Below the pieces are notes generated by a model. It did not search any database and was not told the origin of the DNA. It saw only the letters and a list, made by a program, of their open reading frames with translations. A stretch of 64,000 nt of DNA, from assembly GCF_003201285.1 (NCBI RefSeq), contig NZ_QICS01000010.1:62001-126000 (forward strand), in the 5' to 3' direction. Of this stretch, positions 8,125 to 64,000 are shown piece after piece; the first letter of the stretch is position 1; each line of letters starts with the position of its first letter. A program made the position numbers and the translations under genes. This DNA comes from Lachnotalea glycerini. Lineage in GTDB: Bacteria; Bacillota; Clostridia; Lachnospirales; Lachnospiraceae.

Positions 8125-8127
8125 AAA

Positions 8128-8811: not shown

Positions 8812-8839
8812 ATTAGATAAGAAAAGGAGGTATTAAATT

Positions 8840-9514
8840 ATGAGTTTTAACGATATATTTAAGAAATCGTTTATAGAAGGATTTACAGGTACCGATATCA
8901 GTACATCTAAAATTGCTGCAACTATGCTTGTAACATGCATATTGGCTCTTTATATTTTTGCTATGTACCGTCTGGTTACCAGAAAGACTTTTTATTCAAA
9001 GACCTTTAATATTGCCATAACTATTATATCAATCATTACATCAGGAATTATTCTTGCAATGCAATCGAATCTTGTCATTTCACTTGGTATGGTTGGAGCA
9101 TTATCTATTGTGAGATTTCGAACTGCAATAAAAGACCCATTAGATTTGATTTTCCTATTTTGGTCCATTAGTATTGGAATTATATGCGGAGCAGGCATGT
9201 ATGAAATTGCATTGTTTATGTCAATACTGGTAACAATTGGTTTGCTTGGACTTGATTTGATTCCGGTAGCAAAGGCTCCCATGATTTTAGTAGTTAATTG
9301 TTCCGATAAGTCTAAGGAAGAAGCAATTATCAAAACAGTGAAACAATATTCCAAGGTATTTAAAATAAAATCAAGAAATATTTCAAACAATCATTTAGAT
9401 ATGGTAATAGAGGTAAGAACAAAAAAAGAATCAATGCTTGCAAATGATATATCGAACATAGAAAAGATTGAAACAGTTTCACTGCTGTCTCATGATGGAG
9501 AAGTTACTTTCTAA
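8840..9514 (+). CDS. DUF4956 membrane protein, partner of VTC/CotH
   Basis: 224 residues with about four transmembrane segments in the first 145 residues. These include the conserved block LSIVRFRTAIKDPLDLIFLF, characteristic of DUF4956. A small cytoplasmic domain follows (from about residue 150). It is preceded by AAGGAGG at 8824-8830. The gene follows the VTC polymerase by 28 bp. Members almost always sit beside VTC genes, so a membrane channel or scaffold for the polymerase is plausible, though no activity has been established that I know of. Confidence 0.85.
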   Translation: MSFNDIFKKSFIEGFTGTDISTSKIAATMLVTCILALYIFAMYRLVTRKTFYSKTFNIAITIISIITSGIILAMQSNLVISLGMVGALSIVRFRTAIKDPLDLIFLFWSISIGIICGAGMYEIALFMSILVTIGLLGLDLIPVAKAPMILVVNCSDKSKEEAIIKTVKQYSKVFKIKSRNISNNHLDMVIEVRTKKESMLANDISNIEKIETVSLLSHDGEVTF

Positions 9515-11895: not shown

Positions 11896-13885
11896 GACGA
11901 ATGAAAGCAAAGCCAAAACAGAGGCAGATTATTATAAAAACTTATATTATAAAGAAAAAAATCAAAACTATGAGCTTAACGTAAAATTAGAAAAAGCGAA
12001 TGAAAAAATTGAATTTTTAGAGAGTAAGCTAAAAGGCATTAAGAGTACCTTTGTTTGGAAGCTGTCAAAACCCGCAAGAGTAGTTGTACATTTTTTGATT
12101 CGAACCAGAGACAGAATTAGACGCTGTGGCAGCTTAAAGGGTGTTCTAAGGAAAATGAAGCAAAAGATGTCACAAAGACAGGCTTATGAACTATTTGGAA
12201 CAAAAAGCTTTCCCACCGAGGAAGAGGCAAGAAAACAAAGAGAAACAAAATTTTGCCGAGAGATTAAGTTCAGTATTCTGGTGCCACTATACAATACACC
12301 AAAGAAATATCTGCATGAGATGATTGATTCTGTTGTAAATCAAACCTATCAAAATTGGGAACTATGTTTGGCAGATGGCAGTGATGACAAACATAATTAC
12401 GTAGGTGATATATGTAAAGAATATAACAATAAGGATAAAAGGATTCTTTATAAGAAAATAGAAAAGAATTTAGGCATTTCGGGAAATACCAATGTTTGTT
12501 TTGAAATGGCACATGGTGATTACATGGCATTGTTTGACCATGATGATATTTTGCATCCCAGCGCTTTATATGAAAATATGAAAGTAATATGCGAAAAAGG
12601 AGCAGACTATGTTTATACAGATGAAGCGACTTTCCATGGTAATTCAATCGATAATATGAGTACGATGCATTTTAAATCAGATTTTGCGATCGATACATTA
12701 AGAGCAAATAATTATATTTGTCATTTTTCTACATTCGATGCAAAGCTGTTAGAGAAAACAGGGTTATTTCGAAGCGAATTTGATGGCAGCCAAGATCATG
12801 ATATGATTCTGAGACTTACCTCAGCGGCAAAAAATGTATGCCACATTCCTAAAATATTATACTACTGGCGTTCCCATAAGAATTCGGTTGCTTCGGATAT
12901 TAATGCTAAGGTATATGCAATTGATGCCGCAAAAAGAGCAGTAGAGGATCATTTGACCCAGTGTGGTATCGACGGTGATGCCCAAAGTACAAAAGCGTTT
13001 CCAACGATATTTAAGATTAATTATCATTTAAAGGCAAAGCCGATTGTTTCAATAATAATTGCAAATAAAGACCATCTCAGGGACTTATCAAATTGTATTG
13101 AATCCATTAACTACAAATCAACCTATGATAATTATGAAATTATAATTGTAGAAAATAACAGTACAGATGAAAAGATTTTTGAATATTATGATACATTGGA
13201 TAAAGTACGAAATATTCGTGTGGTAAAATATGAAGGAGAGTTTAATTATTCTGCTATTAATAACCTTGGCGCATCTTATGCAAAAGGTGAATATATTATT
13301 TTGTTAAATAACGATACTGAGATTATTACTGGTAACTGGATTGAAGAATTATTGATGTATGCACAAAGAGAAGATGTAGGAGCAGTAGGAGCCAAGCTAT
13401 ATTATGAGGATGACACGATACAGCATGCCGGAATAGTAATCGGTCTGGGCGCTCATCGAAGCGCAGGACATACCCACTACAGATTGCCTAAGACCAATTT
13501 AGGCTATATGGGAAAATTATATTATGCGCAGGATGTGTCAGCAGTAACGGGAGCCTGCCTGATGGTGAAAAAACGTTTATTTGACCAGCTAAACGGATTG
13601 GATGAGAACTTTGCGGTAGCTTTAAATGATGTAGATTTTTGTTTAAGACTTCGTGAGATGGGATTTCTTAATGTATTTACCCCATTTGCTGAGCTATATC
13701 ACTATGAATCTAAATCCAGAGGTTTGGACGATAAGGATGAAAAGGCAAAACGTTATAATGAAGAAGTAGCTAAATTCAGGCAAAGATGGAGCACGTTGCT
13801 GGAATCAGGTGATCCATACTACAATGTAAACTTCTCATTAGACAGTGCAGAATATAAGGTTGTACCACCAAAAAAGGACAATTAA
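11879..13885 (+). CDS. Two-domain GT2 glycosyltransferase with N-terminal coiled coil
   Basis: 668 residues from ATG 11879 (GAAAGG at 11863-11868); ATG 11861 is a weaker choice. Residues 1-50 are a charged coiled coil. The first GT-A domain (about 125-370) has SILVPLYNTP and LFDHDDILHP. The second (about 380-640) has SIIIANKDH, VENNSTDE and ILLNNDTEI, followed by GACLMVKKRLFDQLNGLDE. Both donor loops and DxD-type motifs are intact, as in bifunctional rhamnan/O-antigen polymerising enzymes. A shorter homologue with a damaged second domain follows directly at 13887. Confidence 0.85.
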   Translation: MEEFNKTNESKAKTEADYYKNLYYKEKNQNYELNVKLEKANEKIEFLESKLKGIKSTFVWKLSKPARVVVHFLIRTRDRIRRCGSLKGVLRKMKQKMSQRQAYELFGTKSFPTEEEARKQRETKFCREIKFSILVPLYNTPKKYLHEMIDSVVNQTYQNWELCLADGSDDKHNYVGDICKEYNNKDKRILYKKIEKNLGISGNTNVCFEMAHGDYMALFDHDDILHPSALYENMKVICEKGADYVYTDEATFHGNSIDNMSTMHFKSDFAIDTLRANNYICHFSTFDAKLLEKTGLFRSEFDGSQDHDMILRLTSAAKNVCHIPKILYYWRSHKNSVASDINAKVYAIDAAKRAVEDHLTQCGIDGDAQSTKAFPTIFKINYHLKAKPIVSIIIANKDHLRDLSNCIESINYKSTYDNYEIIIVENNSTDEKIFEYYDTLDKVRNIRVVKYEGEFNYSAINNLGASYAKGEYIILLNNDTEIITGNWIEELLMYAQREDVGAVGAKLYYEDDTIQHAGIVIGLGAHRSAGHTHYRLPKTNLGYMGKLYYAQDVSAVTGACLMVKKRLFDQLNGLDENFAVALNDVDFCLRLREMGFLNVFTPFAELYHYESKSRGLDDKDEKAKRYNEEVAKFRQRWSTLLESGDPYYNVNFSLDSAEYKVVPPKKDN

Positions 13886-13886
13886 T

Positions 13887-15518
13887 ATGGATAAAAAGTC
13901 AGAAGGAAATAAAAGCGTTTTTGATATGCTAAGTAAAAAACTTACACCGGAAAATATAAAAAAAGGTGTAAACTACCTATCCCAAAATGGTGTAAAGCAA
14001 TTTGGTGCAAAGCTGGTAGGACAGCTTCAAAGAGAAAGTATTGACTATGAGAGCTATAGACAGGAAACAGAACCAGATGATAAACAACTGGAGAAGCAAA
14101 GAAAGTTTCAGTTTTCCTATAATCCTGTAGTCAGCATTGTAGTGCCGTTATATAAGACTCCTGAGTCCTTTTTACGCGCTATGATTGAATCGGTGCTAAG
14201 CCAGACCTATAAGTATGTTGAACTATGTCTTGCAGATGGAAGCGGCATAGAGGATTCCTTAATCGAAGAAATTGTAGATCAGTATAAGCAGGTAGACGGC
14301 AGAATTAAATACATTAAGCTTGAAGATAATCAGGGTATATCAGGCAATACCAACGAAGCACTTAAGCTTGCTAGAGGGCATTTTGTCGGATTATTAGATC
14401 ATGATGACTTTCTGGCTCCCAATGCAGTATTTGAAGTAGTTAAAATGATAAATAAAGAAAAGGCAGATGCAATTTATACCGATGAGGATAAAATTACAAA
14501 GGACGGTAATAAATTTTTTGAACCGCATTTTAAGCCTGCTTTTGATTTGGATCTATTAAGAAGCAATAACTATATCTGCCATTTTTTTGTAGTCAAAAAG
14601 GAAATTGTAGATCGAATAGAAGGCTTTCGTTCAGAATATGACGGTTCTCAGGATTATGATTTTATATTTCGCTCAGTTGAACAATCAAAGGTGATTCGTC
14701 ATATACCAAAGATTCTTTATCATTGGAGAGTGCATTCGAATTCAGTGGCAGATAATCCGGCCAGTAAGATGTATGCCTATGATGCTGGAAAAAGGGCAAT
14801 TGAAGCACATTTAAACAGACTGCATATTGAGGCATTGGTAACCCATACAGTCAATCTAGGCTATTATAGAGTGAAATATATGATACCGCAGACCCCATTA
14901 ATATCCATAGTAATTCGAGATATGAATCAACCGGATAATTATACACGGGCAGTTAAAAATATAGCAGCCCATACCAGCTACATGAATTATGAAGTAATTA
15001 AGGAAGCACAGTTGTTTCGCGCAAGAGGAGAATACATTTTATTCTTTAATGCATATTTGTTTCCACTGAAAAAAGATTGGCTGGAAGAGTTGCTTTCAAT
15101 CTGCGCACGTCGGGAAGTGGGGATAGTAGGAGGAAAAATTTATAAAGGAAATGAAATTTATAAAGCTGGAGTTCTCATAAATGAAACAAATGAGACAAAA
15201 AAGATTTTGTGGGCAGGAAAAAATGCCGTTACCAAAGAAGGTTTTGCAAATGGTGAGGTTGTGACAGTAACACAAATGTTTAACAAGCTTGCAAGATGGA
15301 ATCAAGGGTATTTTTGCAAGGCAATCATACAGCAGGAAACGGATGCTGTGTCAGGCCTATGCATGATGATGAAAAAAAGTATCTATTTTGATCATGGAGG
15401 ATTTAACCGTGCATTGGATAAGAGCTTTGTAGGAATCGATTTTTGTTTGAAAACAAGAAATGCAGGCTATAAGATAGTATATGCTCCATATGCTGAATTT
15501 GAGTTGAGGGAAAGCTAG
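13887..15518 (+). CDS. Two-domain GT2 glycosyltransferase with degenerate second domain
   Basis: 543 residues from ATG 13887, 1 bp after the previous stop. The first GT-A domain is intact, with SIVVPLYKTP, DGSGIED and LLDHDDFLAP. It is a clear paralogue of the upstream gene. The second domain starts normally (LISIVIRDMN) but lacks roughly 40 residues: the stretch with the donor loop VENNST and the helix before GEYI is gone. The NNDTE-type metal motif is replaced by FFNAYLFPLKK. The rest of the fold (AVSGLCMMMKK) remains. One active transferase site is therefore expected, the second domain being structural or decaying. Confidence 0.8.
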   Translation: MDKKSEGNKSVFDMLSKKLTPENIKKGVNYLSQNGVKQFGAKLVGQLQRESIDYESYRQETEPDDKQLEKQRKFQFSYNPVVSIVVPLYKTPESFLRAMIESVLSQTYKYVELCLADGSGIEDSLIEEIVDQYKQVDGRIKYIKLEDNQGISGNTNEALKLARGHFVGLLDHDDFLAPNAVFEVVKMINKEKADAIYTDEDKITKDGNKFFEPHFKPAFDLDLLRSNNYICHFFVVKKEIVDRIEGFRSEYDGSQDYDFIFRSVEQSKVIRHIPKILYHWRVHSNSVADNPASKMYAYDAGKRAIEAHLNRLHIEALVTHTVNLGYYRVKYMIPQTPLISIVIRDMNQPDNYTRAVKNIAAHTSYMNYEVIKEAQLFRARGEYILFFNAYLFPLKKDWLEELLSICARREVGIVGGKIYKGNEIYKAGVLINETNETKKILWAGKNAVTKEGFANGEVVTVTQMFNKLARWNQGYFCKAIIQQETDAVSGLCMMMKKSIYFDHGGFNRALDKSFVGIDFCLKTRNAGYKIVYAPYAEFELRES

Positions 15519-53244: not shown

Positions 53245-54621
53245 ATGAAAAAGTACATTGGGGATAAGAAATTTTACAAAATGGTATTAATTTTGGCAAT
53301 ACCAGTTATGATACAGAATGGAATAACAAACTTTGTCAGCTTATTGGATAACATTATGGTTGGACAGGTTGGAACGGAGCAGATGTCAGGCGTTGCAATT
53401 GTCAATCAATTAATTTTTGTATATAATTTATGTATTTTTGGAATTGTATCAGGTGCCAGTATATTTGGAACGCAATTTTACGGAAAAGGTAATTATGAGG
53501 GGATGAAAAATGCATTTCGATTTAAAATCATCTCTTGCATTATTATGAGTGGAATTGGAATTTTTATTTTATATGGTTTTCAAACCGAATTAATTTCCCT
53601 TTATCTGCATGAGGGAAGTGGCATTGGAGATATTAATGCGGCATTCAATTATGCAAGGGAATATCTGCTTATTATGCTCACAAGTCTGGTTCCTTTTGCA
53701 ATTTCACAGGTTTATTCTAGCACGCTGCGTGAAATGGGGAAAACAGTAGTACCCATGATTGCAGGAATTGTTGCTGTATTTGTAAATATGGTATTGAATT
53801 ATATTTTGATTTTCGGTAAATTTGGCGCTCCTGTATTAGGCGTGCAAGGTGCTGCAATTGCAACGGTAATTGCAAAATACATGGAATGTATCATTATAGT
53901 GACTTGGGTGCACCGACATGCAGCTGATAATAAATTTATTATTGGAGCTTACCAAAGCTTTGCAATACCAAGGCAGTTGGTAAAGCAGATTATGATTAAG
54001 GGTGCTCCGCTGATGGTTAATGAGGCACTTTGGGCAAGCGGAATGGCAATTATTATGCAGTGCTATTCAATAAGAGGGCTTGAGGTGATTGCGGGAATGA
54101 ATATTTCTACGACTATATCAAATATGTTTAATATTGTTTTTATTGCCCTGGGAAGCTCAGTTGCTATTATAATTGGACAATTATTGGGGGCGAACAAGAT
54201 GGATGAGGCAAAGGATACAGATGCCAAATTAATTTTTTTCTCAGTAGTAAGCTGTATTTTTATTGGAATTATTATGGCTATCGTGGCACCACTGTTTCCG
54301 GCTATTTATAAAACCAGCGATGAGGTTAAATATCTGGCCAGCCGATTTATCATGGTGGCAGCGCTATGCATGCCAATTAATGCATTTACACACGCAAGTT
54401 ATTTTACGCTTCGTTCAGGTGGAAAAACAATTATCACCTTTTTGTTTGATAGCGTATTTGTGTGGGTTATTAGTATACCGGCGGCTTATTTTTTGACAAG
54501 GTTCAGCGACTTACATATTATTATGGTTTATTTAATTTGTCAGCTATTGGATATTATAAAATGCATCATTGGATATATTCTTATTAAAAAAGGTGTTTGG
54601 TTGCAGAATATTGTGGTGTGA
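53245..54621 (+). CDS. MATE-family multidrug/metabolite exporter
   Basis: 458 residues, twelve membrane helices in two related halves. LLDNIMVGQVGTEQMSGVAI is the typical first-half signature; TISNMFNIVFIALGSSVAIIIG in the second half is a counterpart, given here in part. It expels cationic compounds by Na+ or H+ exchange. TTGGAGG is at 53234-53240. A 61-bp inverted repeat and a further hairpin lie in the 200-bp upstream region and could regulate it. Confidence 0.92.
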   Translation: MKKYIGDKKFYKMVLILAIPVMIQNGITNFVSLLDNIMVGQVGTEQMSGVAIVNQLIFVYNLCIFGIVSGASIFGTQFYGKGNYEGMKNAFRFKIISCIIMSGIGIFILYGFQTELISLYLHEGSGIGDINAAFNYAREYLLIMLTSLVPFAISQVYSSTLREMGKTVVPMIAGIVAVFVNMVLNYILIFGKFGAPVLGVQGAAIATVIAKYMECIIIVTWVHRHAADNKFIIGAYQSFAIPRQLVKQIMIKGAPLMVNEALWASGMAIIMQCYSIRGLEVIAGMNISTTISNMFNIVFIALGSSVAIIIGQLLGANKMDEAKDTDAKLIFFSVVSCIFIGIIMAIVAPLFPAIYKTSDEVKYLASRFIMVAALCMPINAFTHASYFTLRSGGKTIITFLFDSVFVWVISIPAAYFLTRFSDLHIIMVYLICQLLDIIKCIIGYILIKKGVWLQNIVV

Positions 54622-54691
54622 TAAGAAGTTACGTTATATATAAAAAAACTCTGACATATAATAATTGTAAGAGGATTATGTTGGAGTTTTT

Positions 54692-55207
54692 ATGAAATTT
54701 GATTACAATAAGATATTCCATAATACCGAAACATTTATTAAAGATAAACTGAAAAGAAATGGGGTTATGGCAGGAGCAATGCTAATATTGCTAGCGGTTG
54801 GGATGCTATTTACACCAAAACTGGTATCGATAACCACAAGCACAAATGCAAGTAAAAGAGAGCTTCCCATTTACTGTGTGGAGACACAAAAACCTCAAGT
54901 CGCATTAAGCTTTGATGCAGCATGGGGAAATGAAGATACACAAAAAATTTTGGATATTCTTGCAAAACACGAGGTTAAGGTTACATTTTTTATGACAGGA
55001 GGCTGGATAGAGGAATATCCAGAGGATGTAAAAAATATTGCACAAGCCGGTCATGATCTGGGCAATCATAGTGAAAATCATAAGCAAATGTCACAACTTA
55101 GCAAGCAGGAGTGTATTGAAGAAATTCAAAAGCCGCATGAGAAAGTAAAGGAACTGACTGGAATTGATATGTTTTTATTCAGACCACCTAATGGTAATAG
55201 GGTATAA
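54692..55207 (+). pseudogene. PdaB-like sporulation polysaccharide deacetylase, 3' part cut off
   Basis: 171 residues. A membrane anchor (about 26-48) precedes the NodB-fold domain. Motif 1 is VALSFDAAWGNEDT, with the Asp typical of the PdaB branch, and motif 2 is GNHSENHKQM. The reading breaks off in motif 3 right after FRPPNG, where about 80 further residues are expected. A serine recombinase gene begins 3 bp on, pointing back. The gene therefore looks split by an integrated element; the missing part should lie past the other end. GGAG at 54681-54684 precedes ATG 54692. Confidence 0.8.
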
Positions 55208-55210
55208 TGA
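55184..55210. other. Probable left attachment junction of the integrated element
   Basis: The deacetylase sequence is normal up to the codons for Arg-Pro-Pro-Asn-Gly (55181-55195), then loses similarity and stops at 55207. The recombinase gene ends at 55211. Integrases of this family normally sit at one end of their element, so crossover probably lies within about 55184-55200. The exact core needs the other end. Confidence 0.6.
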
Positions 55211-56671
55211 TTAAGATAAAAAATAATAAATCTTAACTGTTTCGTTTTTCTTATCATATACAATCTCTGAAATAATAGACTTTATAGCAGTGTTCTTTTC
55301 ATTTCTTGTTGCAGATTCAGAGATAAGGATATCATAAACATTTGATATTCTTTGCAACATTTCTTCAGAATTTTTTTCAGAAGACAACGACTCTATAGCT
55401 TCGATCTGATTTAAAATATCTTGTTTTTCATCTGTAATAATTTTTTTATTTTCTCTATATTCTTCAAGAGTATCAACACCATTCCTATAAGCTTCTTTGA
55501 TTCTAAATTCCTTTTTATCGTACTTATCAAGAGCGTTATATAGCGCTTCTAATTCACTAGATTTTTCAATAGAAGCAATGTTTGTATATTCAAGCTCTTT
55601 ATTAAGCATTGCCTCCTGGATATCCTTTAATATTGCTTTTTCAATTTTGGTTGTCCTTATGTAATGTGATTCAGTACATTGATGTTTTTTATATCCAGAA
55701 CATTGAAAACCCGGTCGCTGTCCACCGTTTGAAACTAAGCTTCTACCGCAAGAAGAGCAACGAAGCATAGCACTTAACCAATGAATTTGACTTTCAGGTG
55801 GTAAAGCTTTATATTTATACTCACGTTTTAACCTTGCTTGAGCTAATTCAAATAGTTCCTTTGATATAATAGCTTCATGAGTACCTTTACGAACAATAAC
55901 TTCATCATGATCCATTTTATTACGCTTTTGACGAAATTCAAAGGGCACACCCCACATGACAAGACCACAATAAACAGGATTATCTAATATATATTTTATA
56001 GGTCTACTGAAAAAAGGGTTGCCATGAATAGTAACGGCTCCTAAATTATTTAATTCTTTAGCAATGGCATAAAAAGACATATTGCGATAAACATAATCCT
56101 CAAATATCTTTACAACAAAAGCTCTGTTCTTCTCATCGATAACTATATTGCCGTTATCATAAATATAACCAAATGGCGTCCTAGTTTGCCTAGTTCCCCT
56201 TAATGCATTCTCTGTCATACCCCTTTTTACTTCACCGGATAACCGAATTGAATAGTATTCATCCATCCATTCTATAATACGTTCAATTAAAGAACCAAAT
56301 GGACCGTCAATGAGCGGTTCTGATATACTGATTACATCAATATTGTTTTTCTTAAGTAAAGATTTGTATACAATACTTTCTTCCTGATTTCTGGCAAAAC
56401 GGCTGTATTTCCATACAATAATAACATCAAAGGGATGTTCTTTTGATTTGGACATACTTATCATTTTCTGAAATTCAGGACGCTTATTAGCATATTTTCC
56501 AGAAATACCATTTTCAACGAATATAAATTCTTCAGGAACGAAAATATTATTTTTCTTAGCATACTCAAGCAACAAGCGCTTTTGAGCGTCAGGGGATAAT
56601 TCCTCTTGTTTATCTGTGCTAACCCGGATATATGCAGCACCTGTCAGGATTTTAGAATTAAAGTCACTCAT
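55211..56671 (-). CDS. Large serine recombinase (element integrase)
   Basis: 486 residues. The resolvase domain opens with AAYIRVSTDKQ, with catalytic Ser18, and has VWKYSRFARNQEE. The recombinase domain (about 165-290, RQTRTPFGYIYDNG) leads to a zinc ribbon (CSSCGRSL and CSGYKKHQC). A long C-terminal coiled coil follows (about 370-450). Such enzymes integrate and excise phages, ICEs and sporulation-gene intervening elements. It ends 3 bp from the broken deacetylase, placing it at the left boundary. AAGGAG precedes ATG 56671. Confidence 0.95.
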   Translation of the reverse strand: MSDFNSKILTGAAYIRVSTDKQEELSPDAQKRLLLEYAKKNNIFVPEEFIFVENGISGKYANKRPEFQKMISMSKSKEHPFDVIIVWKYSRFARNQEESIVYKSLLKKNNIDVISISEPLIDGPFGSLIERIIEWMDEYYSIRLSGEVKRGMTENALRGTRQTRTPFGYIYDNGNIVIDEKNRAFVVKIFEDYVYRNMSFYAIAKELNNLGAVTIHGNPFFSRPIKYILDNPVYCGLVMWGVPFEFRQKRNKMDHDEVIVRKGTHEAIISKELFELAQARLKREYKYKALPPESQIHWLSAMLRCSSCGRSLVSNGGQRPGFQCSGYKKHQCTESHYIRTTKIEKAILKDIQEAMLNKELEYTNIASIEKSSELEALYNALDKYDKKEFRIKEAYRNGVDTLEEYRENKKIITDEKQDILNQIEAIESLSSEKNSEEMLQRISNVYDILISESATRNEKNTAIKSIISEIVYDKKNETVKIYYFLS

Positions 56672-56841
56672 GATAATAACTCCTTTGCAATTTATCTAAT
56701 AATATTACAATACATTATAGCATGACATCTATTTGCTTGTTAAGGACGAATGATTATATCATTTTAGTCTGATTTAGTCGTTTAAGCCGTTCCTAGTAGT
56801 GTAGGGGCGGGTTTTGCCATAATGTATTTAAACTTTCACTA

Positions 56842-57990
56842 CTAAGCTTTTAGTGTTTTCAAATCTGTTCGCGGTCCCCTTGTCAGATCAATGCAATATG
56901 GTTCAGGCATTTCATAGGTACCCCATTTTGTATGTAATAATTCCGTAGGGATGTCTTTGAACGGAAGTAAATACCGATTTGCAATATTGATTATTTGACT
57001 AGAATATTCAACTATCTGATCCATATCACACAGGGAATATCTTAATTCTTTTTTGCTTTCATCTGGTACGATAAAAGTTTTTGAAGTATTTGTTAAAATT
57101 AATCGGCATAACCATTTTCTAGAATTATTTTCATAAAGAACTGCTATATATGATTCAGTATATTTAAAAGAAATTTTATCAATATCAACAGTGTTTTTAA
57201 GGATTTCTTTTATAATTGAAAGAGCCTCCCATTCTTCGCTGGTACTCAAATTAGAATCTTTTTCCGTATTTTCGATACTCGCAGTATTCAAGGCGGATTG
57301 AAGCCTTTCATTTAGAACCTCGTTAAGATAGTCGTTCAGCGATTTTTTGAGTACAGGTCTGAATTTTTCAAGTACTGTTTGAGTTTTGGCACCTTTATAT
57401 ATTGACTGTAAAAACAATTTTACGAAATCATCAGATGGTCTTTGAAACTGTTGCTCTATAATACCCTTGAAAATACTATTATACTTTAGCAAAGAAGCAG
57501 TATTCATGATATCGGGAATATCAAGCATCTCTTTTTTGAATTTTATGATTTGGTTTATCTGATTGTCTTTTAGGTTTAATATATTTAGATAAAGGAATGG
57601 CTCTTTATCCATTTTATTTTTCTCATCCAAATCCGTATAAAATCTATACTCGATACCATTTGTAAGAATAGCAAATTTGGCAGAAGTGGCTACGTAATAC
57701 CTAAAGAGTTGAGAACTATGCCTATCCAACTTTTTATTAGAAGCCTTTGCTTCTATCAGTATAACTGGTTCGCCGTTAAGTAAAATTGCATAATCAACTT
57801 TTTCACCTCTTTTAATTCCAACATCAGCAGTATATTCGGGGCAAAATTCAGATGGATTAAAAACATCATAGCCTAAAAGCTGAAAGAACGGAACAATCAA
57901 TGACATTTTTGTTGCTTCCTCTGTTTGTGCGGCATCTTTTAGGGAAGCTGCCCGCTCAATAAAATTTTTAAATTCGTCTTTGAAATCCAT
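56842..57990 (-). CDS. Restriction-type nuclease, HsdR N-terminal-like
   Basis: 382 residues from ATG 57990, behind AGGAGG at 57997-58002; a longer frame to 58053 lacks such a site. Residues 1-150 resemble the type I restriction R-subunit N-domain: VDYAILLNGEPVILIEAKA has the PD-(D/E)xK Asp, Glu and Lys. YYVATSAKFAILTNGIEYRF follows in two strands. The rest is unrecognised. No helicase, HsdM or HsdS is present, as in standalone phage or element proteins of this kind. Defence or anti-competition role is inference. Confidence 0.8.
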   Translation of the reverse strand: MDFKDEFKNFIERAASLKDAAQTEEATKMSLIVPFFQLLGYDVFNPSEFCPEYTADVGIKRGEKVDYAILLNGEPVILIEAKASNKKLDRHSSQLFRYYVATSAKFAILTNGIEYRFYTDLDEKNKMDKEPFLYLNILNLKDNQINQIIKFKKEMLDIPDIMNTASLLKYNSIFKGIIEQQFQRPSDDFVKLFLQSIYKGAKTQTVLEKFRPVLKKSLNDYLNEVLNERLQSALNTASIENTEKDSNLSTSEEWEALSIIKEILKNTVDIDKISFKYTESYIAVLYENNSRKWLCRLILTNTSKTFIVPDESKKELRYSLCDMDQIVEYSSQIINIANRYLLPFKDIPTELLHTKWGTYEMPEPYCIDLTRGPRTDLKTLKA

Positions 57991-58190
57991 ATTTTTCCTC
58001 CTCTTTATCAGTTCGGTTGTTTTTTGTTTTTGTTTTATACTTTTTTCATACACAATAAAATATGCGTAAATTTTATTGTTATAATTTTAATTATAATTAT
58101 CCAAAATATACCAAAATAAGTCAATAGTGAAATAACGATAAAAACCGACATTTAACACCTTAAATTGCCAGAAGTTATTTTTCCCTATTT

Positions 58191-58199
58191 TGTTATAAT
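58191..58199 (+). promoter_or_regulatory. Extended -10 promoter for the XRE gene
   Basis: TGTTATAAT at 58191-58199 is a perfect extended -10, about 90 bp before the gene; no -35 at normal distance. Confidence 0.45.
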
Positions 58200-58287
58200 T
58201 AATAAAAGGGGGATGTGTATGTCTGAAAAAACGTAGGCTATATCTTTACTACCGCCTGTGATTTATATCATCTTATCAGGAGGATAT

Positions 58288-58488
58288 ATGATAACGATTA
58301 ACACATATAAAGCACATATTGATAGAAATATCAGTACAAGGAAATTGGCAGAGCTAACAGGGCTGAGTAAGAGCACGATCAATAATATAGATTGTGGAAA
58401 GACCTCACCAAATTTGCAGCAGCTAGAAGCAATTGCAAAAGCGTTAGATCTAAAAATGACAGAGCTGTTTAAATCGGAGTATAAATAA
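58288..58488 (+). CDS. XRE-family repressor-like regulator
   Basis: 66 residues from ATG 58288, with AGGAGG at 58278-58283. A single Cro/CI helix-turn-helix makes up the whole protein: RKLAELTGLSKSTINNIDCG and LEAIAKALDLKMTELF. It is divergent from the nuclease gene and probably controls the element. No effector or protease-sensitive domain is attached. It is followed by a hairpin terminator. Confidence 0.88.
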   Translation: MITINTYKAHIDRNISTRKLAELTGLSKSTINNIDCGKTSPNLQQLEAIAKALDLKMTELFKSEYK

Positions 58489-58530
58489 TTTATCATATCA
58501 TATATTACAGCCAAAATCTTTCAAAATGAA

Positions 58531-58554
58531 AAATGTCCAGAATTATGGACATTT
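58531..58554 (+). terminator. Hairpin after the XRE gene
   Basis: Perfect arms AAATGTCCA (58531-58539) and TGGACATTT (58546-58554), followed by an AT-rich run without a strong T tract. Confidence 0.55.
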
Positions 58555-58585
58555 CAATATTTTCTATTTATTTAGACAAGATATT

Positions 58586-58594
58586 TGTTATAAT
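58586..58594 (+). promoter_or_regulatory. Extended -10 promoter for the 39-aa ORF
   Basis: TGTTATAAT at 58586-58594, identical to the extended -10 at 58191-58199, 32 bp before the small ORF. Confidence 0.45.
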
Positions 58595-58625
58595 GCTGTA
58601 AAGGAAATGAAAGGGGAGCTATACA

Positions 58626-58745
58626 ATGCAATATACAAAAGAAAATCTTAATTACAAACAATTACTCATAGCAGTGATAGAAAATTTTAACGAGGAGCAG
58701 CTAAAAAAATTGTATTATATAGCAATAGGGATGAAAAAGGAATAG
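58626..58745 (+). CDS. Small 39-aa protein
   Basis: MQYTKENLNYKQLLIAVIEN begins a 39-residue, probably helical protein. Support comes from AAAGGGGAG in front, a promoter box 30 bp upstream, and a stop codon that falls inside the left arm of a perfect terminator. It was too short for ordinary ORF calling. No family is recognised; a small regulator or antirepressor of the element is possible. Confidence 0.6.
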   Translation: MQYTKENLNYKQLLIAVIENFNEEQLKKLYYIAIGMKKE

Positions 58746-58767
58746 CCAACAAAGACTATTCCTTTTT
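58734..58767. terminator. Bidirectional terminator between two convergent small genes
   Basis: Perfect 12-bp arms AAAAAGGAATAG (58734-58745) and CTATTCCTTTTT (58756-58767). The stop codons of both convergent genes lie inside the arms. Confidence 0.88.
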
Positions 58768-58947
58768 TTCTTTCTGGATACAAGTCCTATAAATCCTTAT
58801 AAATATTTGTAATGAAAAACTAGCAAGTAAGCAAATCGTTGGTGAAAATTTCAAACACCAAAGAATCACAAACAATAATATACTTATTCCAGCCTCCCAC
58901 GGTTTCATAGTATATTTTGACGTTAATATGCGTTTAATATTTTTCAA
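58756..58947 (-). CDS. Small membrane protein, 63 aa
   Basis: I favour TTG 58947 as start, behind AGGGG, giving 63 residues. A longer frame from ATG 59001 has no ribosome site and overlaps the remnant of another gene. A basic head (KNIKRILTSKYTMKPWEAG) is followed by two hydrophobic segments (ISILLFVILW and LLASFSLQIFI) and a Lys-rich tail. It ends in the shared terminator. Function unknown. Confidence 0.5.
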   Translation of the reverse strand: MKNIKRILTSKYTMKPWEAGISILLFVILWCLKFSPTICLLASFSLQIFIRIYRTCIQKEKKE

Positions 58948-59009
58948 GTGTATGCCCCTATTCCTTTTTTTTCGTTTTGATAAACTTACTAAATTCTTCA
59001 TATAAGTAA

Positions 59010-59457
59010 TTAATTATTAGACGATAATCCTGAAATAATTGTATCTGTCTGTGTTGCATCAACTAGAATTTTATTTAATTCAAATGTATCATCAGTTTTT
59101 ACTATTGTCAGGCTTAAAAATGCATTATCATCTAAATCAAGATAATTAACGGAAATAAATTTGAAATTAAGATTGTCTGGAGTAGTTTCATAAGCAATCT
59201 TATAATATTTCATTGAAGAAATAAATTTATTTATAATATCTGTTACGTTTTCAGAAGTGACGGATATATCAGTATGTACTAATACATTTAAAGAATCAGC
59301 TGATGAAGAGCATTCCACATTTTCGCCGTAAGAAGTTTTTGCCCAAGCGGTGGCATATTGTAGAGGGCTCTTGGCTTACACTTGAACCGCATGCAGTAAT
59401 AAATAATGAAATACTAATTAGAATGGTAACAGTTAATAATTTGTTGTAAATTTTCAT
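59010..59457 (-). pseudogene. Small lipoprotein gene interrupted by a frameshift
   Basis: From ATG 59457 the frame encodes a lipoprotein signal (MKIYNKLLTVTILISISLF, then ITACGSS with the lipid Cys) but runs out soon after. In the next frame the sequence continues sensibly as QYATAWAKTSYGENVEC and then about 100 residues to 59010. The switch lies at about 59363-59375. The downstream frame alone starts only at a GTG (59318) without a ribosome site. Either a real one-base change or a sequencing error. Function unknown. Confidence 0.6.
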
Positions 59458-59550
59458 ATAATCCCTCATTTCGATAAATAGTTTAAAAAGTTACGATACT
59501 ATTATCCGAAATTTATCACGATATGTCAATGAATATAAACGTATTAATTA

Positions 59551-59581
59551 AAAAAAGAATAGCACAAAACTATTCTTTTTT
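59551..59581 (-). terminator. Terminator after the DUF2441-like gene
   Basis: Perfect 12-bp arms AAAAAAGAATAG (59551-59562) and CTATTCTTTTTT (59570-59581). The TAG at 59570 ends the shifted frame of the gene upstream. Confidence 0.8.
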
Positions 59582-59951
59582 CTTTTTGTCATATTTCTCA
59601 AATTCTTTATATAAGTAATCAAAGTTGCTTGATAATCTTTTTGAAAAATTAAAAATTGAAAAGCCTGATTTAACATATAAGTTTTGAATCAATCTTATTA
59701 AGAACTTTAGCGGGTAAAGGTATTACGGAATATCTATCGATTGTGTACGAGTCGGATTCACTAATAGTTACAGGCTTTCCGGATAGTTGCTTGTCAATAT
59801 AACTCACTTCATTTTTAGCAAAGTGAGAAATTGAGGTGAGTCCTATTAGTTCTAACTGATGTTCACCTTCAAAATTCGAACAACAAGAATATAAATCTAA
59901 TATTTGACCTTCATGTAGTGAATTATTACGGTCAATGTGATAAGCAATCAT
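59570..59951 (-). pseudogene. DUF2441-like small gene with 3' frameshift
   Basis: From ATG 59951 (AGAGGAG upstream) 93 residues open with MIAYHIDRNNSLHEGQIL, resembling DUF2441 proteins, and stop at 59670. Reading on in the next frame from about 59680 gives 34 further sensible residues ending YLYKEFEKYDKKKKE, with the TAG at 59570 placed inside the terminator arm exactly as for the neighbouring genes. A one-base loss in an A run (59683-59686) would explain it. A matching tail lies at 58958-59008. Function unknown. Confidence 0.5.
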
Positions 59952-59983
59952 AATATGCTCCTCTCTTATCTATTTCAACATGC

Positions 59984-60335
59984 CAGTGCTGATAAGAAAG
60001 GTATAAATAAGAAAAAGGATTAATTCAACAACATAACTATAAAAGTAGAAATAATATTTAATCAGAAAGGTTGGTGAGAGTATGAGTCAAACGCTATTAA
60101 CAAGAGAAGAAATTGAAAAGAGACTTCCAAAGCTTGAAAGAATGGCAGAAATTTGGGGAAAGTCAGATGAGTATGGAAAAGGATATTTGCAAGGAACAAT
60201 TAACACATTAGCAGCAGTTGCAAATACATCTAAGAAAACTGCATAGTATGAGGGCTTTGCGTATTCATCTCAGAAAGGAAAGCAATCATAAATTAGAACT
60301 CCTTTCAAATGTATTCAGCAATTCAGTGCTGATAA
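59984..60335 (+). repeat. Two copies of CAGTGCTGATAA upstream of small ORFs
   Basis: CAGTGCTGATAA at 59984-59995 and 60324-60335, 87 and 97 bp before the starts of two small genes. Bases after each copy also resemble each other (AA...GTATA). Probably shared promoter or regulator boxes. Otherwise 59952-60081 and 60247-60431 hold nothing else I can support. Confidence 0.4.
60082..60246 (+). CDS. Small 54-aa protein of the element
   Basis: 54 residues beginning MSQTLLTREEIEKRLPKLER, with a charged helix and then GYLQGTINTLAAVANTSKK. GAAAGG and GGTGAG precede the ATG. A clean start and natural composition support a real gene, though too short for usual calling. No family recognised. It is the first of a run of small plus-strand genes leading to the Rep gene. 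Confidence 0.6.
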   Translation: MSQTLLTREEIEKRLPKLERMAEIWGKSDEYGKGYLQGTINTLAAVANTSKKTA

Positions 60336-60431
60336 CAACAGTATAGAAAAATCGTAAAAATTTACAAGAAATGAAATAGATAGTCAACAAGTACAAGCAA
60401 AGCAACATAAATTAAAACTGGAGGTGATCCT

Positions 60432-60590
60432 ATGAAAGAACTAAAAGTAGTTAGATACATAAAAATGGATGGTAAGTGTATGCCATGGAGTGATTTAACA
60501 GAGAAAGAACAAGAAGAACTAAAAGAAAAATTAAATCAGCAAGGTATGAAATCATTAGGATATGTTCCAGTAAAAAAGGAAACCGCTTAG
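60432..60590 (+). CDS. Small 52-aa protein of the element
   Basis: 52 residues, MKELKVVRYIKMDGKCMPWS then a Glu/Lys-rich helix and GYVPVKKETA. A full GGAGGTGATC ribosome site at 60420-60429 gives strong support. The stop TAG forms the loop of a small hairpin, AAACCGC/GCGGTTT. Similar short proteins occur in Firmicute mobile elements, but I cannot name a family. Confidence 0.7.
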   Translation: MKELKVVRYIKMDGKCMPWSDLTEKEQEELKEKLNQQGMKSLGYVPVKKETA

Positions 60591-60597
60591 GCGGTTT
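60580..60597 (+). terminator. Short hairpin at the end of the 52-aa ORF
   Basis: AAACCGC (60581-60587 region) pairs with GCGGTTT around the stop codon loop. No T run follows, so it may pause or protect the RNA rather than end it. Confidence 0.35.
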
Positions 60598-60723
60598 ATG
60601 GAGGACAAGCTAAAAAGTGACAAAAATGAACTCAATGAATCAAGAGATAACAAATAAAGAATCGTTGACTACATAGGGAAAAGTAATTAGTCATAATTTT
60701 AAATGTTAGAAAGGAGAATACTC

Positions 60724-60843
60724 GTGAATCTGGACAATAAAACAGTGGGTGAGTTAATTGATTCATATGAAGAAAATGAACAGACAGTCACAATCAATGA
60801 CGGACATGTATTCATAAATAAGAAAGAGGGTGAGAGGGATTAA
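60724..60843 (+). CDS. Small 39-aa protein of the element
   Basis: 39 residues from GTG 60724, with AAAGGAG at 60711-60717: MNLDNKTVGELIDSYEENEQ followed by a beta-like TVTINDGHVFINKKEG. It overlaps the start of the 3D-domain gene by 14 bp, so the two are translationally coupled. No family recognised. Confidence 0.6.
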   Translation: MNLDNKTVGELIDSYEENEQTVTINDGHVFINKKEGERD

Positions 60844-61234
60844 AAAGAAAATCTCATTAATAGCAGCATTAATAATTTTATGCTTCGTTGTACAAGCTGA
60901 TGCAAAGCAAAGTAATTTCTATGGACAAGTTAACAAGTTTACTGTTTATGGTTATTGCGCTTGTAAAAAGTGCTGCGGTAAAACGGATGGCATTACTTAT
61001 ACGGAAACCAAAGCCATTCAGGATAGAACCATAGCAGTAGATCAAAATAGTATACCCTTAGGTTCTACTGTGCTAATTTATTATGAAAACAGCTTAGTCG
61101 GGATATATCAAGCAGAAGATATAGGTGCAGATATTAAGGGCAATAAGATTGATATGTATTTTGACTCTCATTCAGATGCGAATGACTGGGGTGTAAGAGA
61201 ATGCGAAGTGATTATCGTGGATGCGAAAGGGTAA
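60830..61234 (+). CDS. Secreted 3D-domain cell-wall protein
   Basis: 134 residues from GTG 60830. A signal peptide (about 1-24, ISLIAALIILCFVVQADA) precedes the 3D double-psi barrel: FTVYGYCACKKCCGKTDG, TIAVDQNSIPLGSTV and AEDIGADIKGNKIDMYF. The three aspartates are seen in the last block and in DSHSDANDWG. It probably cuts or remodels peptidoglycan glycan strands, as YocH/YorM-type proteins do, and in a mobile element may aid transfer or release. Confidence 0.88.
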   Translation: MRGIKKKISLIAALIILCFVVQADAKQSNFYGQVNKFTVYGYCACKKCCGKTDGITYTETKAIQDRTIAVDQNSIPLGSTVLIYYENSLVGIYQAEDIGADIKGNKIDMYFDSHSDANDWGVRECEVIIVDAKG

Positions 61235-61250
61235 AGAAAGGACTTTATTA

Positions 61251-61514
61251 GTGAAAATAGAAAATAGCATTAAAACAAGTGAATTTGAAGTGGCACGAAA
61301 GGAAGCTTTTAGCATCAAAGGCAGTAGCAGTGGAATGAGGTACATAGGAGCAGTTGAGTACAAGGATGGAAATGTAAATAAATTTTTTAAAGATGAAAAC
61401 GGAGACTACTGGTTCGAAAGTTGGCGAAGAGTAAATGACAAGCTGATAACCGAAGAGGAATATATCTTTGGAAAGAAAATAAAGTCATTTAGGAAAAGAG
61501 CAGCCTATTACTAA
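61251..61514 (+). CDS. Small 87-aa protein of the element
   Basis: 87 residues from GTG 61251, with AGAAAGGA at 61235-61242; an in-frame ATG at 61221 would overlap the previous gene. MVKIENSIKTSEFEVARKEA is followed by beta-rich VEYKDGNVNKFFKDENGDYW and a basic end. Looks like a small soluble element protein. No family recognised. Confidence 0.6.
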   Translation: MKIENSIKTSEFEVARKEAFSIKGSSSGMRYIGAVEYKDGNVNKFFKDENGDYWFESWRRVNDKLITEEEYIFGKKIKSFRKRAAYY

Positions 61515-61543
61515 AATAAAAATAAGTCGGGAGGGGAGACACG

Positions 61544-61723
61544 ATGAAAAAGCTTATAAATTCTATAAAAGTTGTAAGAATAAATATTTGCGTCAAATTG
61601 CATATGAACGGATTTACAACGCTTGCATATTTTGTAGACAAAGAGACATGTACCTATCTGGATTATTTGAAAAGAGTAGCAAGGATAGTGAAAGAGCATT
61701 GTATTAATGAATCTGATGATTAA
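61544..61723 (+). CDS. Small 59-aa protein of the element
   Basis: 59 residues, MKKLINSIKVVRINICVKLH then a helix YLDYLKRVARIVKEHC. Preceded by GGGAGGGGAG, a strong ribosome site. Part of the same run of small genes. Function unknown. The 188 bp after it contain a short possible hairpin (CAAGGG...CCCTTTG, 61854-61875) and no credible gene; an 18-codon frame at 61741 has its ribosome site too close to be convincing. Confidence 0.6.
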   Translation: MKKLINSIKVVRINICVKLHMNGFTTLAYFVDKETCTYLDYLKRVARIVKEHCINESDD

Positions 61724-61911
61724 ATTAGGATTTAGGAGGTATGGAAAAATATTGGTACAGATTTAAGCATAACGATATAGAATCACAAATGCCATAAGAC
61801 AATAAAACTATATTAATAATTATATCAAAAGTATGGCAGAAAGTCAATAAAATCAAGGGTTTTCATGCCCTTTGAGTAACATTCTAAGTATATTAAAGTT
61901 AGAGGTGGACA

Positions 61912-62730
61912 ATGGCATACTGGAAAGATACATGGCCGTTTATTAATTCAATTGAGTATGAATATAAGTTCGCAGGGAATTACGGAGCAAAGGGAGAAAA
62001 AAGGGGAGAAAGAAAAAAGGCTACTCCGGAACAAATCAAAAAGCAGAATCAATTGAACAAAGAAAAACGTATGAGAAGAGTAATCAAAGCCAATTTCTTA
62101 TCGGAAGACTACTGGATTACATTAAAGTATCCAGAGGGAACGAGAAAGAAAGTGGAGGAAGTGAAAAAGGAACTCAAAAAGTTCCTTGATGATATGAGGA
62201 AAGCATATAAGAAACGAAGTGAAATATTCAAATTCATATATCGGATGGAGATCGGAGAGCTTGGTGGAATCCATATTCATATTTTACTAAACCGAATACA
62301 GGGAAAGCCACATACAGATTTATTGATCAAGGAGCTGTGGCCTCATGGGACAATTAATTATCAAACCTTATATGAATATGGTGGATATAAAAAACTAGCA
62401 AATTATATCGTGAAGCCTCCAGATGAAGAGGTATATGAACAACTTAGTCTATTCGAGGAAGAGGAACAAAAGCAATTCATAAGATATTCTTCTTCGAGGA
62501 ATTTAATCCGGCCAGAACCAGAACGAAAGGTATACCGAAGATGGACGGTAAAACAACTAATCGAAGATGGACCAAAACCAACCAAAGGTTTTTACATAGA
62601 CAAAGATTCAATCATAGTCGGAGTCAATAAGTATACCGGAATGTCGTACCTACAATACACCGAATGCCGCATCAATGAAATCAAAGATCGAGAAGAATAC
62701 GAGAAATTAAAACAGGAAGGAGTGGGATAA
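61912..62730 (+). CDS. HUH rolling-circle replication initiator (Rep/G2P-like)
   Basis: 272 residues. GGIHIHILLNR (about residue 118) is the His-hydrophobe-His metal site, and YGGYKKLANYIVKPP (about 158-172) supplies the catalytic tyrosine(s) and the lysine of the third motif. A basic N-terminal region precedes them. This is the REP_ORF2/G2P-type replication protein of small phages and plasmids, which nicks one strand at an origin. AGAGGTGG lies just before the ATG. Inside an integrated element it implies a circular, self-replicating stage after excision. Confidence 0.85.
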   Translation: MAYWKDTWPFINSIEYEYKFAGNYGAKGEKRGERKKATPEQIKKQNQLNKEKRMRRVIKANFLSEDYWITLKYPEGTRKKVEEVKKELKKFLDDMRKAYKKRSEIFKFIYRMEIGELGGIHIHILLNRIQGKPHTDLLIKELWPHGTINYQTLYEYGGYKKLANYIVKPPDEEVYEQLSLFEEEEQKQFIRYSSSRNLIRPEPERKVYRRWTVKQLIEDGPKPTKGFYIDKDSIIVGVNKYTGMSYLQYTECRINEIKDREEYEKLKQEGVG

Positions 62731-62731
62731 C

Positions 62732-63139
62732 TTGTTTGACGTAAATATTTACATAGAGACAACCATCAAAAGCGCCAACGTGGGTGCCGGATACTACGGC
62801 TATGTAGTTGAGTATATGCTCCAAAAGAAGCAAGAATCGATCACCAGAGTAGAGATAGAAAAGGAAGTTAATATTACGGCAAATCAACTTTATCTTATGG
62901 CATGTTATAGAGCTTTAGAGATACTAGAAAAACCTTGTGACATTATCATTTATACTGATTCGGCTTACCTACAAAACGGCATCAATACATGGATGCACCA
63001 ATGGTATCAAGCAGACTGGATTGGTGCAAAAGGAGAACACATCAAAAATTTAGATCTATGGAAACCGTTGCATGAAATTGCAAGTAAACATTTAATCAAA
63101 GTAGAAAATGTCAAAGCCTATATTATTAGTATATTATAA
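62732..63139 (+). CDS. RNase H-fold protein, catalytic residues partly lost
   Basis: 135 residues from TTG 62732 with AGGAAGGAG at 62713-62721. The fold is seen in VNIYIETT, YYGYVVEYM, NQLYLMACYRALEIL and IIIYTDSAYLQNGI. Of the four acidic residues of RNase HI only the Asp of YTDSAY is plainly kept: the usual first Asp is Glu, the Glu of the ELLA-type helix reads Tyr, and the protein ends (VKAYIISIL) before the last acidic block. It is probably inactive or binds RNA-DNA only. It follows Rep by 1 bp. Confidence 0.75.
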   Translation: MFDVNIYIETTIKSANVGAGYYGYVVEYMLQKKQESITRVEIEKEVNITANQLYLMACYRALEILEKPCDIIIYTDSAYLQNGINTWMHQWYQADWIGAKGEHIKNLDLWKPLHEIASKHLIKVENVKAYIISIL

Positions 63140-63253
63140 AGCATTTTATGAGTTTTAGATAGATACAATAATTTAGTCTTTAATTAAGTAATTGTACATT
63201 GACAACTGAATACGGTATGTTTATATTACTATTTGCTTAAAAATAAATATTGT

Positions 63254-63282
63254 TTGTATAACATTAGCTATTGTTGTATAAT
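63254..63282 (+). promoter_or_regulatory. SigA-type promoter for the secreted protein gene
   Basis: TTGTAT at 63254-63259, 17-bp spacer, TATAAT at 63277-63282, 54 bp before the next start. Confidence 0.65.
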
Positions 63283-63336
63283 TTAATATGTCTATAAAGA
63301 TAGATAAAAAAGCACATAGAAAGGTAATATCATATC

Positions 63337-64000
63337 ATGAAAAAAATATTAAAAAAAGCCGTAAGTATAACTTTAGCAATTTGTTTAACCTTTTCTGCTG
63401 GATCAACATCACAAGCTTTTAGTAATGTAACAAATGACACTAATTACTATTTGGAGAATCTTAGCAATCAATTTGATACAATGACTGCCGAAGAGTTAAA
63501 TCAATATATAGGTGATAATATACAAGAATTAGAAAATCAAAACTCGCAATCCTTAAATCAAATTCCATGTAATAAAAGCACCAGTACTAAGGTATCTGCA
63601 ATATGGTTAGCAGGTGCAAAATATATGGAAAAAAAAGGAAATACATGTACAGCTAAATTACTTGAATACTCTGTTTTAGGTAAAAATTATACCGAAACTC
63701 AAATATCACCAAATGGATTATTCGCAAAAAAAATTGTTACATCATCTGCATTTACAAGTTATTTAAAAAAAGTGAAAAATAATAAGGCACCCGCAGGAAT
63801 TGCCTTTGAAAAAAGTGATAATGCAGATTTATTTTATGCATTACATTATACTGATGCAAGCACCAAAGTTAACTTTGCAGGAACAGTTCTTGCAACTTAC
63901 AATGTTACAATAACAGATACTTTTGATTTTTCTCTAAGCACAGATGATTATAAAGATATCATCACTACTAGTGCTAATAACTATGCATGGTTTTCTCAAA
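63337..64000 (+). CDS. Secreted protein of unknown family, 3' end beyond window
   Basis: The frame is open from ATG 63337 to the window end, so at least 221 residues. MKKILKKAVSITLAICLTF is a clear signal peptide, with cleavage probable near SQAFS. The mature part is rich in Asn, Thr and Ser and has two cysteines (in IPCNK and NTCTA), a helical start (MTAEELNQYIGDNIQELEN) and later strands YALHYTDAS and ATYNVTITDTFDFS. AAAGG is present upstream. I do not recognise the family. It has its own promoter, so it is a separate cargo gene. Confidence 0.8.
   Translation, partial: MKKILKKAVSITLAICLTFSAGSTSQAFSNVTNDTNYYLENLSNQFDTMTAEELNQYIGDNIQELENQNSQSLNQIPCNKSTSTKVSAIWLAGAKYMEKKGNTCTAKLLEYSVLGKNYTETQISPNGLFAKKIVTSSAFTSYLKKVKNNKAPAGIAFEKSDNADLFYALHYTDASTKVNFAGTVLATYNVTITDTFDFSLSTDDYKDIITTSANNYAWFSQ

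Follow-up and report, generated by a model that had tools for sequence, protein, structure and literature searches.

The window, that is, the whole stretch of 64,000 nucleotides analysed here (G000:C10:62001-126000, from a genome, G000, of 4.86 Mb in 48 contigs), holds a polysaccharide deacetylase gene that breaks off at the edge of a phage-like element, which raises the question whether this gene is merely truncated or has been split by an element whose excision could restore it. The preliminary description had placed the end of the gene inside the third catalytic motif and a large serine recombinase (LSR) 3 bp beyond it, and both placements are correct. The open reading frame at 54692-55207 terminates with FLFRPP, followed by NGNRV and a stop codon, inside motif 3 (motif numbers as in the NodB/CE4 literature), and its match to Pfam Polysacc_deac_1 (4e-32) stops at profile position 107 of 124. 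The recombinase combines Resolvase, Recombinase and Zn-ribbon domains (PF00239, PF07508 and PF13408), all above cut-off, in one protein. The gene and its junctions comprise the following features:

53245-54621, plus strand: MATE-type efflux gene, named by resemblance; synteny marker 5' of the deacetylase
54692-55207, plus strand: PdaB-like polysaccharide deacetylase, 5' fragment, 171 aa; codons to FRPP of motif 3, then five element-derived codons and a stop
55176-55189, plus strand: attL core TATTCAGACCACCT, 14 bp; second copy at attR, L042:10397-10410 (minus strand), at the start of the 3' gene fragment
55190-55212, plus strand: attL prophage arm, inverted repeat of the attR arm (GTAATAGGGTATA...ATGATT)
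55211-56671, minus strand: large serine recombinase, 486 aa, convergent with the deacetylase fragment
G000:C13:132085-132396 (L042:10085-10396), minus strand: deacetylase 3' fragment, 103 codons, near the end of contig C13

The missing part of the gene is present in the same genome. Using the C-terminal 102 residues of an intact same-genus homologue as query, we obtained one strong match in G000 (C13:132091-132393, minus strand, 72% identical), beside the other end of the element, and no other close copy of the deacetylase gene was found in G000. A missing C-terminus had thus been rightly anticipated, its length being 103 residues rather than the proposed figure of about 80. The direct repeat expected at both junctions is the 14-bp core common to attL and attR, which occurs once in the window, where 0 occurrences are expected (100 shuffles). 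The outer arms GTAATAGGGTATA and ATGATT are mutually inverted, a match reached by none of 500 shuffles, and the prophage accordingly has the identical short core at both ends and the inverted phage arms by which LSR prophages are recognised. Joining the flanks in silico gave ...MFLFRPPYGDYNNTVIEAAYE..., with the FRPPYG motif and the whole reading frame restored exactly, and the joined protein departs from intact homologues at none of 64 highly conserved columns (conservation of 93% or more in a set of 19 intact homologues).

Comparison with uninterrupted homologues gave the same picture, as the intact genes of both same-genus relatives (G001 and G002; open frames of 282 and 296 aa) run on past the break point. 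The MATE-type neighbour is found upstream of the intact gene in G002 as well, and a different gene is found there in G001. Since both checks, the 3' fragment with its repeat and the homologues continuing past the break, were favourable, a gene-splitting element restorable by excision is well supported. Among the surroundings seen by eye, the region downstream of the intact gene has, in both G001 and G002, nitrogenase-like genes together with their regulators (L043:283-10554; L044:339-1909). Tail-fibre-like and amidase-like genes directly follow the deacetylase 3' end of G000, outside the prophage (L042:4145-9786, on C13), and a tail-fibre-like gene follows the intact deacetylase of G002 (L044:11746-12909); these phage-like genes are possibly remains of earlier prophages at the locus.

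attL lies on contig C10 and attR on C13, and a split might be simulated by chimeric contigs in a genome whose gene is really intact. In keeping with such an artefact, both contig ends fall in a repeated amidase gene: C10 ends (148918) in the start of an amidase-like gene, named by resemblance, and the attR core is 528 bp from the C13 end, the intervening DNA including the 3' end of the amidase gene. Five copies or parts of this gene are present in G000, namely at the two contig ends, at C2:1-405 and C14:9-528, and as a whole copy at C13:127793-128650. The contigs evidently broke because the amidase gene is repeated, leaving about 268 bp unassembled. Four of the five copies or parts lie at contig ends: G000 has several prophage ends akin to one another, and the assembly broke at them. 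In principle, the C10 end could join C2 or C14 instead of C13; judging by the common core and the inverted arms, attL and attR belong together. Against an artefact stand the junctions themselves, which are internal to their contigs, 31.7 kb away from the end of C10 and 0.5 kb from that of C13, and agree in core and arms, the splitting of the same site on one single contig in genome G100, and the failure to find a second close gene copy in G000. Assembly error was rejected on the position and agreement of the junctions, and we regard it as hardly credible. An exact-pattern search of IMG/VR viral contigs did not find the joined phage site (attP), although records of G000 may be missing there.

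The element delimited by the two cores measures about 32.5 kb (31,729 + about 268 + 528 bp). Its left part, within the window and beyond the recombinase gene, includes the following:

55190-64000, strand not applicable: prophage left part, continuing to C10:148918 (31.7 kb), followed by a gap of about 0.27 kb in the repeated amidase gene and 0.5 kb on C13 to attR
56714-56743, minus strand: sigma-A-like promoter of the recombinase, TTAACA-N18-TATAAT, consensus match only
56842-58053, minus strand: HSDR_N-domain protein, from domain search
58258-58488, plus strand: HTH repressor-like protein
60432-60590, plus strand: 52-aa protein, weak candidate recombination directionality factor, common to the site-3 prophages of the window and G100
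61912-62730, plus strand: phage replication initiation protein
62732-63139, plus strand: RNase H-like protein

Together with genes for both terminase subunits (small and large), tail sheath, tape measure, baseplate and holin, this gene content makes the element look like an ordinary complete prophage of a contractile-tailed temperate phage. Only four ORFs are common to this prophage and the one at the same site in G100 (blastp E <= 1e-4), i.e. the recombinase, the 52-aa protein, the replication initiator and the RNase H. The 52-aa protein (37% identity between the two, E 3e-8; matching phrog_26314, of unknown function) is therefore a candidate directionality factor, and a place in the replication module is equally conceivable for it. 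A sigma-K consensus match lies 18 bp before its start, being one of five in the element and too near the ribosome-binding site to trust. Another phage-like region of G000 carries a second recombinase, 51% identical to that of the window (L061:11292-12791, on G000:C17).

The window's split is one of many in the PdaB-like gene family and not a single case. A search of 299 sampled genomes of the source's family, probably the Lachnospiraceae to judge by named relatives of the recombinase and by two Butyrivibrio loci (below), detected a PdaB-like gene in 119, of which 115 had a best match of E <= 1e-50 and four a weaker one; G100, G123 and G279 matched less well because their genes are split, and G231 because its gene is frameshifted. 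Fragmentary matches were searched again with N- and C-terminal queries in 20 genomes and then joined. Among the matches listed (E about 6e-34 or better), at least 16 of the 119 genomes carry a split gene (G000, G018, G044, G047, G075, G100, G123, G125, G142, G178, G187, G242, G268, G279, G281 and G290). Their insertions number at least 19 and fall into four sites, of which three are catalytic motifs:

Site 1, between FDAAW and GNED, motif 1: 10 insertions
Site 2, between FFMTGG and W: 1 insertion
Site 3, between FRPP and YG, motif 3: 3 insertions, the window's included
Site 4, between QWDVD and S, motif 4: 5 insertions

Three genomes (G100, G123 and G044) harbour two elements each, leaving the gene in three pieces. 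In G100 and G123 a single contig carries all three pieces in order, separated by elements of 11.0 and 39.7 kb in the former and of 2.4 and 4.8 kb in the latter. The third piece of G044 is on a separate contig; pieces are likewise distributed over different contigs in G075, G142, G178, G187 and the window's genome. The recombinase at site 3 of G100, where the split lies on one contig, is 67% identical to that of the window. A second, intact copy of the gene is retained in G268 and G281. Two further splits were identified in other families of the order, G034 and G040, the N-terminal piece of G040 not being found.

Core lengths across the insertions range from 2 to 14 bp, the cores of 2-5 bp being the script's best in-frame join and little proof alone; the join of G142 (core GTGGA) was accepted on inspection. 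When junctions were tested singly, inverted arms were recovered in 8 of 19 (the window, both of G044, site 3 of G123, G075, G047, G034 and G279; match reached by at most 5% of shuffles) and not in the other 11, in a test that left out G290, G142 and the second join of G034. The notion that the arms are inverted repeats at most junctions was accordingly dropped. The 13 measured elements span 1.5 to 39.7 kb, and some small ones (G268, 2.3 kb; G279, 2.7 kb; G047, 3.3 kb; G123 site 3, 4.8 kb) have few genes besides the recombinase. By eye, the G279 element (L147:5335-8005) comprises its recombinase and two small ORFs resembling an antitoxin and a PIN-domain toxin. Two elements, those of G242 and of G123 site 1, have no recombinase and thus could not excise alone. 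At the loci of the recombinase-less elements (L153:6132-7601 and L144:7702-10084), one contains a single long ORF of 425 aa and the other encodes a LysR-like regulator and membrane proteins, again by eye.

Several candidate splits were rejected. G231, still counted within the 119, has a single-base frameshift in one stretch, and the break in the G292 gene comes from contig ends (position 19549 on C20, 15377 on C36). G042, G119 and G036 have an intact gene and displaced 3' fragments, which begin at or near site 4 (L155:6514-6753 and 13673-14410; L156; L163). In G042, the gene end from site 4 past the stop codon is present twice, in the intact gene and in the displaced copy (312 of 330 bases identical), and no recombinase was found at the duplicated end. 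It looks as if an element had brought its own gene end, which may represent a second way of keeping the gene. G036 also has an extra deacetylase piece (residues 77-200) 7 kb upstream of its intact gene (L163:5755-6108).

The 20 LSRs in or beside split genes group mostly by site. One clade belongs to site 1 and another to site 4, and the window and G100 form a pair at site 3; different lineages thus use different motifs of one gene. The site-3 recombinase of G123 falls beside the site-1 clade, and those of G290 (site 2) and G034 stand apart. Among the best 8 of 466 phage-database records, the closest relative of the window recombinase is 39% identical to it. One PdaB fragment (L062) was detected among the 75 IMG/VR relatives of this recombinase, in a record whose recombinase is by eye the same as that of G100. 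None of the 80 genome contigs kept from 327 recombinase relatives has a PdaB-like fragment beside the recombinase; two have an intact gene and six have weak paralogues only. The two contigs with an intact deacetylase, 62-67% identical, are from Butyrivibrio (L195 and L208), the gene lying about 4.5 kb from a recombinase of the window type (L195:2644-3312 and 8001-9437; L208:2767-3549 and 8001-9449).

Whether restoration of the gene would matter to sporulation depends on what the gene is. Its nearest curated family is PdaB (TIGR02764), and five intact homologues scored 207.3 to 222.4 bits against a cut-off of 237.4, three of them scored without their first residues; hence the name PdaB-like. 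SpoIVA is present in 114 of the 119 genomes with the gene versus 79 of the 180 without it (Fisher p 6.5e-23, kinship ignored), including all 15 split genomes counted, the window's among them, and additionally G142. As a rough control, a pair of SpoIVA matches, which might mean a split, was seen in no more than 3 of 194 genomes.

The preliminary description had also pointed to a -10-like sequence before the gene, weakly resembling that of a forespore sigma factor. This sequence, CATATAATA, is present at 54655-54663, and mother-cell sigma-E fits it no less well than a forespore sigma factor does:

54634-54662, plus strand: sigma-E-like promoter of the deacetylase, TTATATA-N14-CATATAAT, consensus match only

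The same two boxes recur at the same spacing in G001 and G002, and the window contains an equal-scoring alternative site. Upstream of 39 intact and split genes, which are partly related, CATAYAHT was found in 13 against 0.8 in shuffles (largest 4), and bipartite promoter scores of the 39 upstream regions gave z 6.5 for sigma-E, 3.1 for sigma-K, 1.9 for sigma-F/G and 1.3 for sigma-A. Possible counterparts are known from C. difficile, in which sigma-E controls three polysaccharide deacetylases and its promoters carry an ATA -35 (PMC3789822). The sigma-E-like signals point to mother-cell expression; excision in that cell would do no harm to the genome of the spore. Since the gene tracks SpoIVA and carries a sigma-E-like motif, a role of the type known from skin and SPbeta is plausible.

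Fourteen of the 16 joined genes were rebuilt for the conserved-column test (G123 and G279 were excluded by the motif filter; G142 and G040 were not entered), and 19 of 32 intact loci passed the filter. At the 64 columns, seven joined genes show no change, two show one, two show two and one shows three, with 7 changes in G034 and 21 in G044, whose joined gene lacks the third piece; intact genes left out singly had 0 to 25 changes (mean 3.1). The joined gene of G125 gave a dN/dS of 0.019 to its nearest congener (intact median 0.065) and that of G279 0.13 to its three nearest congeners (intact median 0.137), so that split-versus-intact values are similar to intact-versus-intact values in the two genera tested. 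Since most congeners are intact (11 of 12 for G125, 10 of 11 for G279), these insertions are young and the dN/dS test is low in power, and the conserved halves may only mean recent insertion. For the window gene, dS is saturated, and its branch is the longest of three in the genus (0.24 vs 0.07 and 0.16); the genus of G047 is represented by one genome only.

The explanation that we consider best, and probable as a whole, is an LSR prophage in the motif-3 attB of a sporulation-type gene, restorable by excision. A temperate contractile-tailed phage would have integrated via its own LSR into an attB formed by the codons for motif 3 (FRPPYG), and this integration would have cut the sporulation-type PdaB-like gene into its 5' and 3' pieces; recombinase and directionality factor together would excise the prophage, the gene being rejoined without base loss. 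The parts of this explanation that were demonstrated in silico, namely the two halves, the 14-bp core, the inverted arms, the exact in-frame restoration, the intact same-genus homologues and the recurrence at four sites, leave very little room for doubt, and the split and its exact restorability are firm. That excision is timed to sporulation is a more tentative proposition, for which the chances seem to us somewhat short of even. Upstream of the 20 LSRs, no enrichment of sigma-E or sigma-K promoters was found (z 1.2 and 0.9); for SPbeta and the skin element of C. difficile, a constitutive recombinase and a regulated directionality factor are described (PMC5595907).

A serious competitor, though one to which we give less than even weight, is that the element is an active prophage of the ordinary kind. 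Its attB would be a conserved sequence coding for a catalytic motif, the spore gene that it inactivates would be dispensable, and it would depart only upon SOS-type induction, independently of development. The complete structural gene set, the sigma-A-like recombinase promoter, the missing enrichment of sporulation promoters and the young age of insertions in two genera agree with this, and LSRs are known to converge on conserved genes (PMC10083194). It accounts less readily for a gene found mostly in SpoIVA-bearing genomes being targeted repeatedly by several recombinase lineages, for the small recombinase elements with few other genes (G268, G279, G047 and G123 site 3), and for the G042 stretch with a spare 3' end, in which the gene was left intact. 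That the split gene is instead a pseudogene, with the element stuck in a lineage losing the function, appears unlikely: elements without recombinase do exist, G268 and G281 keep a second intact copy and the window gene has the longest branch of its genus, yet neither half of the window gene has a stop or frameshift, none of the 64 conserved columns is changed, the recombinase and both att sites are intact, and SpoIVA is present in the genome. Returning to the restorable prophage, a wider and rather doubtful extension would make the PdaB-like gene a hot spot for DNA-level splicing, in which several unrelated LSR lineages, each with its own motif, and stacked elements occupy a gene from which the mother cell may remove one or two elements per sporulation to make the enzyme; selection might favour such a refuge because the gene is not expressed during growth and is required solely in a doomed cell.

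Intervening elements in sporulation genes have been described as a handful of single cases in the sources covered, where the known split genes are sigK, spsM, spoVFB, spoVR, gerE and yabG (PMC4191935, PMC5595907, PMC10747680); in the PdaB-like family, 16 genomes between them have at least 19 insertions, spread over four sites. Comparisons within this family could address whether mobile elements tend, over evolution, to settle in genes that only a dying cell needs, by what route directionality factors are brought under developmental control, and whether a spore-wall step is lost or delayed where phages lodge; the family also provides recombinase groups with defined attachment sites as a resource. 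Moreover, annotation would call the split genes truncated, and censuses of spore genes may thus undercount them.

Among the matches listed from the full-text open literature, subscription journals and preprints apart, no split pdaB-like gene was found. An LSR prophage in a spore-type gene is of a known kind; this particular gene, its four insertion sites and the stacking of elements did not turn up in the literature covered. Convergence alone is not new, since LSRs often converge on single conserved genes (PMC10083194). As in the family studied here, several lineages share one target in the magnesium chelatase-type protease and the prolyl isomerase described there; these targets, in contrast, are not described as sporulation genes in the part of that source covered, and the word 'deacetylase' is absent from its main text. 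The elements vfbin (spoVFB), vrin (spoVR), gin (gerE) and yin (yabG) are similarly recombinase-bearing and lodged in split sporulation genes, whereas each is described, in the material covered, at one place in one gene and none in a deacetylase gene (PMC5595907, PMC4191935, PMC10747680). SPbeta in spsM of Bacillus subtilis is likewise a phage with a serine recombinase, reported as constitutive (PMC5595907), inside a spore polysaccharide gene that is restored by excision; it differs in gene and phage, and its sporulation-specific excision and directionality factor have been demonstrated, their counterparts in the window prophage being a proposed excision and a candidate factor (PMC4191935). Skin in sigK of B. 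subtilis and C. difficile shares with the window a recombinase downstream of the 5' gene piece and exact rejoining; skin, however, is a defective prophage in a sigma-factor gene, whereas the window holds a full prophage in an enzyme gene, with relatives that carry two elements per gene (PMC4191935, PMC10747680, PMC5025042, PMC6957869).
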